A stretch of 34,735 nucleotides of DNA from a virus. Positions 21,865 to 30,960 of the stretch are shown piece after piece. Position 1 is the stretch's first letter; the number at the start of each line of letters is the position of its first letter. The notes under the pieces are model-generated. The model searched no databases and was not told where the DNA came from. It saw only the letters and a list, made by a program, of their open reading frames with translations. The stretch lies in the IMG/VR virus record IMGVR_UViG_3300046517_000330, positions 1 through 34,735 of that record. One strand, given 5' to 3'. The position numbers and the translations under genes are program-made.

Positions 21865-21893
21865 TTGATGTTCTAATACTTGCGAAGTATTAT
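21865..21893 (+). promoter_or_regulatory. Promoter with 17-bp palindromic operator in the spacer
   Basis: TTGATG (21865-21870), exactly 17 bases, then TATTAT (21888-21893), 27 bases before the ATG at 21921. The perfect palindrome AATACTT-GCG-AAGTATT (21875-21891) fills the spacer and the front of the -10, so a bound protein would block RNA polymerase. The same layout recurs at 27935-27963. Confidence 0.75.
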
Positions 21894-21920: not shown

Positions 21921-22097
21921 ATGAGCCACTACGAAAATTACGTCCTGAAGCAAGCAGCCGAGACGATCGGCAAGCTGCGCGAGCTGGTGCAGTCCGGTCA
22001 CATCACCATCGAGAGCGCATGCGCAATCGGCGAAGCGCGCGCCATGCTGCAAATCCTCTCTGACGCACTGGAGGCTCGCAGTGAACGCGCGGTTTAA
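21921..22097 (+). CDS. Small helical protein (58 aa), first gene of a regulated mini-operon
   Basis: MSHYENYVLKQAAETIGKLR then ELVQSGHITIESACAIGEAR and a helical C-terminus. It looks like two or three amphipathic helices, with no recognised family. GGAG stands seven bases before the ATG. It is driven by the operator-controlled promoter just upstream, lies on the strand opposite to the late operon and overlaps the next gene. Size and isolation fit a small regulator or anti-host factor; this is inference. Confidence 0.72.
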   Translation: MSHYENYVLKQAAETIGKLRELVQSGHITIESACAIGEARAMLQILSDALEARSERAV

Positions 22098-22200
22098 GTT
22101 CAGCCACGATTTCTGGCTCGATCAGGAGGCTGACGCCTACTACAACGAGACAGATGGCGAGGATGACGAAGAACCGGAGGAAGATCCGGATAATGAGTGA
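22081..22200 (+). CDS. Tiny acidic-tail protein (39 aa)
   Basis: A GTG start with GGAGG six bases upstream, inside the end of the previous gene. The N-terminal half (NARFKFSHDFWLDQEADAYY) is mixed; the C-terminal half is almost entirely acidic (TDGEDDEEPEEDPDNE). The stop is followed at once by a terminator, so the ORF boundary is well supported. Such acidic tails occur in DNA-mimic inhibitors and polymerase-binding phage peptides; no specific match is claimed. Confidence 0.65.
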   Translation: MNARFKFSHDFWLDQEADAYYNETDGEDDEEPEEDPDNE

Positions 22201-22205
22201 CTAAG

Positions 22206-22228
22206 GCCCGCGCGATGCGGGCTTTTTT
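22206..22228 (+). terminator. Intrinsic terminator of the mini-operon
   Basis: GCCCGC-GCGAT-GCGGGC followed by TTTTTT: a perfect 6-bp GC stem and U6, six bases after the TGA of the 39-aa gene. It has no T-run on the minus strand, so it would not stop leftward transcription. Confidence 0.93.
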
Positions 22229-22280
22229 GTTTGTGCCGCTACTTTCCCGGCTGGTCAAGCGGTGGGGAGCCGCTAGGCGA

Positions 22281-22317
22281 AAACGAAAAAGCCGCCGCTG
22301 ATTTCTCTAGCGACGGC
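22281..22317 (-). terminator. Second tandem leftward terminator
   Basis: The minus strand has a 9-bp stem GCCGTCGCT / AGCGGCGGC (one G-U pair) around a 9-base loop, then TTTTTCGTTTT. It lies about 100 bases after the strong leftward promoter, as a back-up to the terminator at 22326-22355. Confidence 0.85.
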
Positions 22318-22324
22318 CTGCGTG

Positions 22325-22402
22325 TAAAAAGCCGCTCAACCCTTCCGGGGAGCGGAAACTGCTTTGCAGCAGAAGGAACCGGGAACGCATGAATCCCACG
22401 GT
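22325..22402 (-). ncRNA. Candidate short RNA (about 78 nt; PR'-like leader or phage sRNA)
   Basis: This is the predicted transcript from the promoter at 22409-22438 to the first terminator. It holds hairpin CTGCT-GCAA-AGCAG (22359-22372, GNRA-type loop) and then the terminator stem. No ORF of note lies in it: an ATG in the sense strand (ATGCGTTCCC) has no SD. Two readings are possible: a constitutive, prematurely terminated late leader like lambda 6S RNA, extended into the late operon when an antiterminator acts; or a trans-acting sRNA. Ends are predicted from sequence only. Confidence 0.6.
22326..22355 (-). terminator. First leftward terminator after the strong promoter
   Basis: The minus strand reads CCGCTC, inner CCC-GGAA-GGG, TT, GAGCGG, then CTTTTT. 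The outer stem is 6 bp, with a nested 3-bp stem. It ends about 78 bases downstream of the expected transcription start at 22402. Confidence 0.8.
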
Positions 22403-22408
22403 GACACA

Positions 22409-22438
22409 ATCATATCAAAACAGTCCAAGTTGTGTCAA
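22409..22438 (-). promoter_or_regulatory. Strong leftward sigma70 promoter (extended -10)
   Basis: On the minus strand a perfect TTGACA (22438-22433), 18 bases, then TGA-TATGAT (22414-22409) with the TGn extension. It is the best consensus promoter in the window. The 17-bp operator-like element 22441-22457 abuts the upstream side of its -35. Terminators follow within 120 bases. Confidence 0.85.
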
Positions 22439-22440
22439 CC

Positions 22441-22457
22441 AAAACTTCGCGTGTATT
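22441..22457. promoter_or_regulatory. Operator-like palindrome, third copy
   Basis: AAAACTTCGCGTGTATT differs by one base from the operator at 27945-27961. On the plus strand TTGTGT (22430-22435), 18 bases and TATTAG (22454-22459) put it in the same register to a weak -10 as the other copies. It also touches the -35 of the strong leftward promoter, so a bound protein could repress or activate that promoter. Confidence 0.55.
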
Positions 22458-27234: not shown

Positions 27235-27464
27235 GCAAGCCATTACGCCAATACGAATACAAAGACCCTCTTGAGGTCTTGATAACGCGCGAGGAACGAA
27301 CATGCAAGGGCTGCGTCTGGAGTGTCGGGAAAATCACGTTCGGGGAACGCTCACTTTGCGCAAAGCTGCGCGTGATGACGAAGCGATGCGCGGAGTACCG
27401 CTGTTCGCAAGCATGGAGGCAGCACTATCGTTCGCGCATCTCTGGCGGGCAACGTCAGGAGTAA
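27231..27464 (+). CDS. Cys-rich small protein (77 aa), possible zinc knuckle
   Basis: GTG start overlapping the methyltransferase stop (GTGA). MSKPLRQYEYKDPLEVLITR, then ERTCKGCVWSVGKITFGERS, LCAKLRVMTKRCAEYRCSQA. Cys25, Cys28, Cys43, Cys53 and Cys58 could bind zinc. A basic C-terminus (WRQHYRSRISGGQRQ) suggests nucleic-acid contact. The last 52 bases overlap the next gene. No family assigned. Confidence 0.65.
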   Translation: MSKPLRQYEYKDPLEVLITREERTCKGCVWSVGKITFGERSLCAKLRVMTKRCAEYRCSQAWRQHYRSRISGGQRQE

Positions 27465-27904
27465 AGGCGAGCGAGATCAAGGAATTCGTCGGCAAGGAAG
27501 GCGGCATGATCCTATCCGCGAGCGAGAAACGGGCGCAGGCGCGGCTGATCCTCGATGTCATAGCCTCGCATACCTCGCTCGATCAACGGGCGCTCCTAGA
27601 CGCGGAATACGGCGGCGAGAACGGCGAGCGACACGCGGCGATCGGTCGGCTCGAACACCTGTTCGCCGGCATCGTGCGCAATCGGGCCGTCATTCGCCTG
27701 ATGCTGATGCGCGAGTTCGTGTACGGCGCGCACTACTGCCCTTCCGCGCAGCACATCGCCGACGAGTGCGGAGTAAGCCGAAGCACCGCATACAACGCAG
27801 CTACGAAGATCGGGCCGGCGATCGCAGAGCTGCGCCAAGCGACGCACGAGAAGTTACGACCGGCGTTCGAGCGGCGCGGGTGGCTGGCGCGAGAAGAAAC
27901 GTAG
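27413..27904 (+). CDS. HTH protein in late-regulator position
   Basis: 163 residues from ATG 27413 (MEAALSFAHLWRATSGVKAS). An alternative ATG at 27506 (MILSASEKRAQARLILDVIA) has a much better SD, AAGGAAGG, and would give 132 residues. The MEAALxFAH opening recurs, as I recall, in uncharacterised proteins of related phages, so I keep the longer form. The C-terminal half has an HTH (CPSAQHIADECGVSRSTAYN then AATKIG) and long helices. Closing the first early block just before a promoter, it is a candidate for the Q-like late activator or antiterminator, or for the protein that binds the 17-bp operator. Function is inferred from position only. Confidence 0.68.
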   Translation: MEAALSFAHLWRATSGVKASEIKEFVGKEGGMILSASEKRAQARLILDVIASHTSLDQRALLDAEYGGENGERHAAIGRLEHLFAGIVRNRAVIRLMLMREFVYGAHYCPSAQHIADECGVSRSTAYNAATKIGPAIAELRQATHEKLRPAFERRGWLAREET

Positions 27905-27934: not shown

Positions 27935-27963
27935 TTGCGTTGTTAATACTTCGCGTGTATTAT
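27935..27963 (+). promoter_or_regulatory. Second early promoter with 17-bp operator in the spacer
   Basis: TTGCGT (27935-27940), 17 bases, TATTAT (27958-27963). AATACTTCGCGTGTATT (27945-27961) sits in the spacer in the same register as at 21875-21891. The start point would be about 27970, followed by the 47-aa gene and the structured leader. Confidence 0.75.
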
Positions 27964-28220: not shown

Positions 28221-28258
28221 CTGATGAGACCACAACAACAAACCAGAAGGAAACGTCG

Positions 28259-28648
28259 ATGAAACCGCAAAACATCTCCCGCAACGGCTTATTACGCCGT
28301 CTTGAAGCCTTCCGCCCGCAACAAGCTCCTGTTGCGCGTAAAAATTTGTCTGCAATGGATACACTGGCTGCTTCAGTTCCTAAGTCAGTGTTCATGCAAG
28401 AACTGCGCAAGGCCGGCGACGAGCATCTTTGCCCAGTCGCCGAACTGATCGAACTCCATCGACAGGTGCAGATCGCGGAGAAGGTGCCGGACATGTACGC
28501 CCTTCTGATGAATTTCGATCTGGAATGGCGTCGCTTTTCATCGATGTTTCCTGAAGCCGCCGCTGATGGCTGGCTCTCCCTCCTTGTGAACCGTGCGCGC
28601 GTCCTGCGCGATGAAATCGACGAGATCAGCCATGCGGGCCGCAATTGA
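28259..28648 (+). CDS. Helical protein of unknown function (129 aa)
   Basis: MKPQNISRNGLLRRLEAFRP, VARKNLSAMDTLAASVPKSV, then helical AELIELHRQVQIAEKVPDMY and a C-terminal RARVLRDEIDEI. Mixed charge, no Cys clusters, no motif I recognise. AAGGAAA lies before the ATG. It starts the recombination block; the position suggests a recombination or replication accessory, but nothing further can be said. Confidence 0.65.
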   Translation: MKPQNISRNGLLRRLEAFRPQQAPVARKNLSAMDTLAASVPKSVFMQELRKAGDEHLCPVAELIELHRQVQIAEKVPDMYALLMNFDLEWRRFSSMFPEAAADGWLSLLVNRARVLRDEIDEISHAGRN

Positions 28649-30891: not shown

Positions 30892-30903
30892 ATAATACTC
30901 GCC

Positions 30904-30960
30904 ATGCTTTATTTCGTGGCAATATTCTAGAACGGATACGCCCGATGCTTTATGTCTGGC
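30904..30960 (+). repeat. Imperfect direct repeat in an intergenic stretch
   Basis: ATGCTTTATTTCGTGGC (30904-30920) and ATGCTTTATGTCTGGC (30945-30960), 41 bases apart (about four helical turns), with one gap and one mismatch. The AATAATAC just before (30893-30900) resembles one arm of the 17-bp operator family. No convincing -35/-10 pair is seen. Confidence 0.45.

Follow-up and report, generated by a model that had tools for sequence, protein, structure and literature searches.

Layout of the locus

The window, meaning the whole 34,735-nucleotide (34.7-kb) stretch of the virus record analysed here, encodes a portal of the P22 type, and its terminase large subunit shares 74% identity with the one from Xanthomonas phage PBR31. 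Late genes are oriented leftward (1019-21777), early genes occupy the stretch from 23562 to the end in the rightward direction, and a leader lies between them. The parts considered are as follows.

22409-22438, minus strand: predicted sigma-70 promoter TTGACA-18-TGA-TATGAT (-35 at 22438-22433, -10 at 22414-22409)
Within 22409-22438, minus strand: promoter spacer CAACTTGGACTGTTTTGA, a putative antiterminator-binding element that differs between phage groups
22398-22403 (-1 to +5), minus strand: second -10-like hexamer CACCGT, a predicted sigma-dependent pause element
22378-22402, minus strand: predicted RNA start (22402) and first hairpin H1, found in several groups with differing sequence
22372-22380, minus strand: conserved, mostly unpaired box GGTTCCTTC
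22359-22372, minus strand: leader hairpin H2
22326-22355, minus strand: intrinsic terminator 1 (H3 and U-tract)
22280-22317, minus strand: intrinsic terminator 2 (H4 and U-tract)
22258-22274, minus strand: hairpin H5, loop CTCCCCA, past both terminators
22235-22251, minus strand: hairpin H6, GAAAG-type loop, after which RNA cassettes come in relatives
22203-22230, plus strand: terminator of a convergent mini-operon, a hairpin with no U-tract on the minus strand
1019-21777, minus strand, downstream of the promoter: late region with an 81-aa ORF, exonuclease, terminase, portal, capsid and tail genes
27413-27904, plus strand: gene for a 163-aa protein with the predicted fold of a Q/AlpA-type antiterminator

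A strong promoter closely followed by two terminators

In a site scan the promoter at 22438-22409 matched the consensus at 11 of 12 positions with a TG ahead of its -10, and it was the sole site scoring at least 10 in the whole window, in keeping with the preliminary description, which had called it the best promoter present. Shuffling the whole window 100 times with dinucleotide composition preserved gave an equally good site in 5 cases, and taken alone the match is only moderately unlikely by chance and no proof. An inverted repeat flanking the promoter (TGACACAA...TTGTGTCA) was considered as an operator and set aside as no general part of the locus, since L005-type phages have it in altered form and groups B-E lack it. 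Separately, a AATACTTCGCGTGTATT-like palindrome occurs at 21875-21891, 22441-22457, 27945-27961 and 30894-30910, near several likely transcription starts, with one copy abutting the -35 of the late promoter; five matches were reached in none of 100 shuffles, and the phage repressor (22846-23466, minus strand) probably uses this palindrome as its operator.

The promoter stands closely before two intrinsic terminators, as had been proposed, with U-tracts ending at about +77 and +117 counted from the predicted start at 22402. Terminator 1 is a hairpin (22355-22332) followed by CTTTTTA, with its U-tract at 22330-22326 (+73 to +77), and terminator 2 a hairpin (22317-22291) followed by TTTTTCGTTTT, with its U-tract at 22290-22286 (+113 to +117). 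Both were missed by a simple terminator scan, which does not allow for loops or inner stems of this size. RNA released at terminator 1 would be about 76-78 nt long and at terminator 2 about 118 nt, and the RNA from 22402 to 22270 folds at -53.7 kcal/mol (z = -2.7). No conserved ORF was found in the leader, again as first described, and among relatives the leader length varies by amounts that are not multiples of three, which rules it out as a coding region.

Conservation and covariation of the leader RNA

Besides the window, 27 distinct variants, all of them viral contigs gathered by searches with neighbouring genes and the terminator pattern, have the promoter, hairpins and U-tracts in the same position, and the locus is also present in two more records, plus further ones found by a covariance model. 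Across the variants the order of promoter, GGTTCC box, hairpins and U-tracts is constant despite sequence divergence. The covariance model matched 8 of 16 further records (E 1e-19 to 8e-27), 7 of which had been fetched solely for encoding a homologue of the 27413 product, the eighth being the L006 record; 7 of the 16 gave no match, several of these being fragments, and G014 (35.7 kb, with the same recognition helix as the window's) gave a match of only 9.7 bits. A strict promoter pattern requiring TTGAC found nothing in 22 further records bearing the 27413 homologue because those promoters use TTGCGA or other variants, as seen in the covariance-model matches. No known phage was matched by DNA similarity, and a search of bacterial genomes with the terminator-2 pattern returned two apparently unrelated matches, in Streptomyces and Tepidamorphaceae.

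Stem pairs were tallied by hand from the sequences, since RNAalifold on a MAFFT alignment misaligns hairpin 2. Standard pairs were kept at 50 of 50 positions in H2 (over 10 variants), 40 of 40 in H3 (terminator 1; 31 of 33 in its inner stem), 24 of 24 in H4 (terminator 2), 46 of 48 in H5 and 39 of 40 in H6, and when 3' arms were exchanged between variants as a control, standard pairs fell to 54-90%. Changes on both sides of a pair were seen at 3 of 5 pairs in H2, 5 of 5 outer and 2 of 3 inner pairs in H3, where the T-tract is invariant, 2 of 8 in H4, and 4 of 4 in each of H5 and H6. The H4 stem is otherwise conserved, and group D has a different but complementary stem in its place. Because H5 and H6 lie beyond the terminators, their compensatory changes argue that transcripts extending past the terminators are produced and under selection, which is hard to explain unless readthrough belongs to the design. 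The window does have the GNRA-type hairpin of the preliminary description, as GCAA in hairpin 2 and GGAA in terminator 1. Conservation does not extend to it, the stems being kept while the loops change, and this detail is incidental. In Rfam the leader stayed below every family's gathering cut-off, and the window gave nothing but sub-threshold chance matches.

A protein of predicted AlpA-like fold, a predicted pause hexamer at a fixed offset and a spacer that follows the recognition helix

Homologues of the 27413 product, 55-100% identical, were found in 77 viral loci. The protein matched no antitermination family in PHROGs, NCBIfam or Pfam, and a profile search of the PDB by sequence found nothing. 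An AlphaFold (AF2) model built from 30 homologues (pLDDT 83.9, pTM 0.79) had as its best Foldseek match AlpA (7xyb chain G; E 2.8e-3, probability 1.00, TM 0.66/0.64, 18% identity), with the next match at E 0.46. AlpA had matched weakly with a first model from 17 close sequences (pLDDT 61), and the wider alignment raised pLDDT to 84 and brought E to 0.003. This match covers the AlpA/Q21-type arrangement of an N-terminal ring-forming segment and a C-terminal helix-turn-helix, with residues 11-30, the would-be ring loop, modelled at low confidence. The predicted fold thus supports 27413 as encoding a Q/AlpA-type antiterminator, one that belongs to no known Pfam, NCBIfam or PHROG Q family. Among 12 records that have either a divergent leader or a related late region, 7 encode a homologue of this Q; the others include short fragments.

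The AlpA antiterminator of P. aeruginosa is processive: bound at a site between the -35 and -10 elements, it enables polymerase to read through terminators further downstream (PMC7969949, PMC9371919); it requires a sigma-dependent pause at a -10-like CACGAT occupying -1 to +5 of PalpB (PMC9371919). A -10-like element is found in the same register of the initially transcribed region here (CACCGT), and in 15 of 17 related promoters a yAnnnT hexamer (A at position 2, T at position 6) lies exactly 5 nt past the -10, while every other offset gave 0-2 of 17. The readable promoters of the covariance-model records carry TAACGT, TAACAT, TAGCAT or TATCGT at an unchanged offset. Of the exceptions, L121 has its hexamer one base later, and L264/L006 has a promoter without the hexamer, its 41-kb record (G010) having no detectable Q homologue. 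In that record the leader RNA is kept while pause hexamer and Q homologue are both absent, and it probably uses a different antiterminator.

Comparing phage groups revealed that the promoter spacer changes together with the recognition helix of the AlpA-like protein. Group A pairs helix SRSTAYN with spacer CAACTTGGACTGTTTTGA, group B helices HQATVSR and NQATVSR with CATCTGCATAAGATTCG, group C helix SPMTASR with CATCCGTTACGGTTTTG, and group D helix NQATVSR with ATACTGCATAGGTATTGG; CTGCATA is common to the spacers of groups B and D, whose helices are HQATVSR/NQATVSR. As spacer type follows helix across all four groups in a small number of independent cases, we take it as a strong suggestion rather than a result that the spacer is the antiterminator-binding element.

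The path from the leader to the late genes

The late genes lie leftward of the promoter across a gap of about 500 nt plus the convergent operon. Between terminator 2 and the exonuclease, neither the window nor most of the relatives tested showed a leftward intrinsic terminator, L129 having one weak candidate there, and the terminator of the mini-operon offers none to leftward RNA because its U-tract is on the plus strand only. The claim that the promoter points at the late operon therefore holds, the late genes being reachable without another intrinsic terminator after 22281, although a weak second promoter in the gap is possible. For the same reason leftward RNA reading past 22281 would run antisense to the mini-operon at 21921-22200, as had been suggested, and might switch it off. 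The possible second promoter is a weaker leftward TTGGTC-18-TATAAT (21918-21889, -10 at 21894-21889), present in the window, L005 and L090 and absent from L004 and groups B and C; its -10 could contribute to late transcription in some group A phages.

Exchangeable RNAs past the terminators in relatives

The gap from H6 to the convergent terminator is empty in the window, L004, L087, L093, L109, L020 and others. Other variants carry tRNA-Asn(GTT), tRNA-Tyr(GTA) or tRNA-Ser(CGA) genes past the terminators, or else structured RNAs, roughly 150-400 nt long, in which a constant frame (CTCTCACGCATGGCG...CGCCAGTCGTGAGAGTGA...GCCGGAGATCAGC..CCGGCCGCTCTCA) surrounds an interior that differs in nearly every phage; some interiors have tRNA-like arms. 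These cassette RNAs reached no Rfam family's cut-off, and a tRNA-like element in L115 scored only 21.6 bits. Because no promoter was recognised inside the cassettes, they appear to depend on readthrough, which is a second argument for antitermination.

The modular RNA, with its constant frame and hypervariable interior, is sometimes arranged in tandem and was seen in L007, L084, L094, L032, L034, L284, L287, L304, L347 and others. The middle arm CGTGAGAG has two possible partners, the 5' arm CTCTCACG and the 3' arm CTCTCA, which suggests alternative states. The pattern scan for the cassette RNA was loose, with the paired 5' arm kept in only 21 of 80 matches. The 3' half of the frame also occurs in the cultured phages YA3, PAJU2 and Shamal (L376, L379, L380), between annotated Q and lysis genes, and near tRNA genes in Salmonella and Klebsiella phages. 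In L001, identical to the window at leader and exonuclease, a copy lies past the exonuclease gene (L001:7558-7750); the window contains no 5' motif of the modular RNA, and modular RNAs therefore also move within the late region. In L034, from a related phage, a Proteo-phage-1 RNA (L034:5239-5319; RF03044, 48 bits) sits beside a cassette copy in an RNA array upstream of the exonuclease.

It is possible, though we hold this only tentatively, that the late leader serves as a docking site for exchangeable RNA, in which a conserved entry RNA (H1-H6) is followed by swapped tRNAs and hypervariable, partly tRNA-like RNAs that would be delivered only late, plausibly for counter-defence or host takeover, the same RNA domain occurring in the Q-to-lysis gaps of unrelated Pseudomonas phages. 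A counter-defence role of the cargo RNAs is a guess.

A probable Q-dependent late promoter and rival readings

Taken together, the AlpA fold at 27413, the pause hexamer in AlpA register, the joint change of spacer and helix, and the conserved RNA past the terminators make it very likely that the locus is a Q-dependent late promoter, in which promoter, pause and two terminators would be joined by an antiterminator from 27413 that lets polymerase through to the late genes. Under this model, RNA polymerase would start at about 22402 on the minus strand and pause when sigma meets the -10-like CACCGT at -1 to +5. Without antiterminator it would get no further than terminator 1, after about 78 nt, or terminator 2, after about 118 nt, leaving a short structured RNA. 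Once 27413 is expressed from the early region, the helix-turn-helix of its product would bind the promoter spacer and the protein would load on the paused polymerase, constricting the RNA exit channel in the manner of AlpA and Q21, so that both terminators are passed. Polymerase would then copy H5 and H6 (with tRNAs and structured RNAs in relatives), cross the mini-operon antisense and enter the late genes.

The preliminary description had offered a late promoter or a short-RNA gene as alternatives; the late-promoter reading is supported, and the short RNA is no alternative to it, since it very probably exists as a by-product of the same promoter. A free-standing sRNA gene, whose abundant 78- or 118-nt structured RNA acts alone with readthrough as mere leakage, would fit the strong promoter, the compact hairpins with compensatory changes and the mostly unpaired GGUUCCUUC box, and StxS, from Stx phages, sets a precedent for a PR' by-product with a regulatory role (PMC7873438). 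Moreover, UUCCUUCUG of the box (22370-22378) could base-pair with the ribosome-binding region of the gene at 28259 (28244-28252), a possible target; the 9-mer occurs in only two places, and as many matches arose in 2 of 100 shuffles. Such a gene leaves unexplained, however, the conserved pause hexamer, the co-variation of the spacer with an AlpA-fold protein and the selection on H5, H6 and cassettes past the terminators, and we consider it very improbable. That the Q-type promoter drives leader and RNA cargo only, with structural genes served from the leftward promoter near 21918-21889 under a repressor operator at 21875-21891, draws on the TATAAT -10 there and on the overlapping palindrome found at several phage promoters. 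Against this, the -35 is poor, L004 and groups B and C lack the site that the window, L005 and L090 share, and no leftward terminator would halt the leader transcript ahead of the late genes, which makes the arrangement unlikely. That a promoter-like sequence stands next to two hairpins purely by chance is favoured by the 5% of shuffles with a site this good, but position, register, hairpins and U-tracts are conserved in at least five diverged groups, a degree of conservation that already refutes this reading and leaves it practically no probability.

Relation to known systems

In the lambda PR'/6S RNA/tR' system with Q, as in the Q systems of phages 21 and 82 (see also PMC9371919), a strong promoter with an early pause yields a short terminated RNA, the late genes come next and the antiterminator is made from the early region. 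The same layout can be read here from the sequence, with the differences that 5 kb separates the Q gene from a promoter on the other strand, where in those phages Q is immediately upstream, and that the terminators are in tandem and the protein falls outside the Pfam Q families. With AlpA and its promoters PalpB/PPA0807 the locus shares the predicted protein fold, the expected binding element in the spacer, the -1 to +5 hexamer register and one or two terminators downstream (26-247 nt) (PMC7969949, PMC9371919). It differs in serving a phage late operon where AlpA serves cell-lysis genes, in lacking detectable sequence similarity, and in having as its leader a conserved multi-hairpin RNA with RNA cargo. 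AlpA and Q21 are themselves reported to share a similar fold without sequence homology (PMC7969949, PMC9371919). StxS, a short terminated RNA from PR'-tR' of Stx phages, is a by-product of an antitermination-controlled late promoter, as the short RNA here very probably is, and belongs to a class marked by stable short RNAs with Hfq-dependent targets; its sequence and structure are different from those here (PMC7873438).

In Xanthomonas phage PBR31 and the three Pseudomonas phages, Q, leader and late genes stand in a row. PBR31 has an annotated Q, a TATACT promoter-like site, a terminator and then an operon whose exonuclease (42% identity) and terminase are homologous, but on one strand, compactly and without an RNA cassette. 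YA3 (whose Q is PF06530), PAJU2 and Shamal share the relatives' cassette-like RNA domain (GTGAATGCGCAGGCTGATGCGC ... GCCGGARATCAGCACCGGCC), placed between annotated Q and lysis genes, a domain that is missing in the window, whose leader is of the empty type.

The kind of element, a Q-dependent late promoter, is thus already known, and what is new is the Q family, the leader RNA and the exchangeable RNA cargo. A Q family invisible to sequence searches, together with its promoter, would form a directly testable protein-DNA pair from phages seen here almost only in metagenomes, and the groups with differing helices and spacers would constitute a natural experiment on how Q reads its site. With RNA after the terminators that appears selected, and a site there for exchangeable tRNAs and structured RNAs, such late leaders may be a place to seek new phage RNAs.
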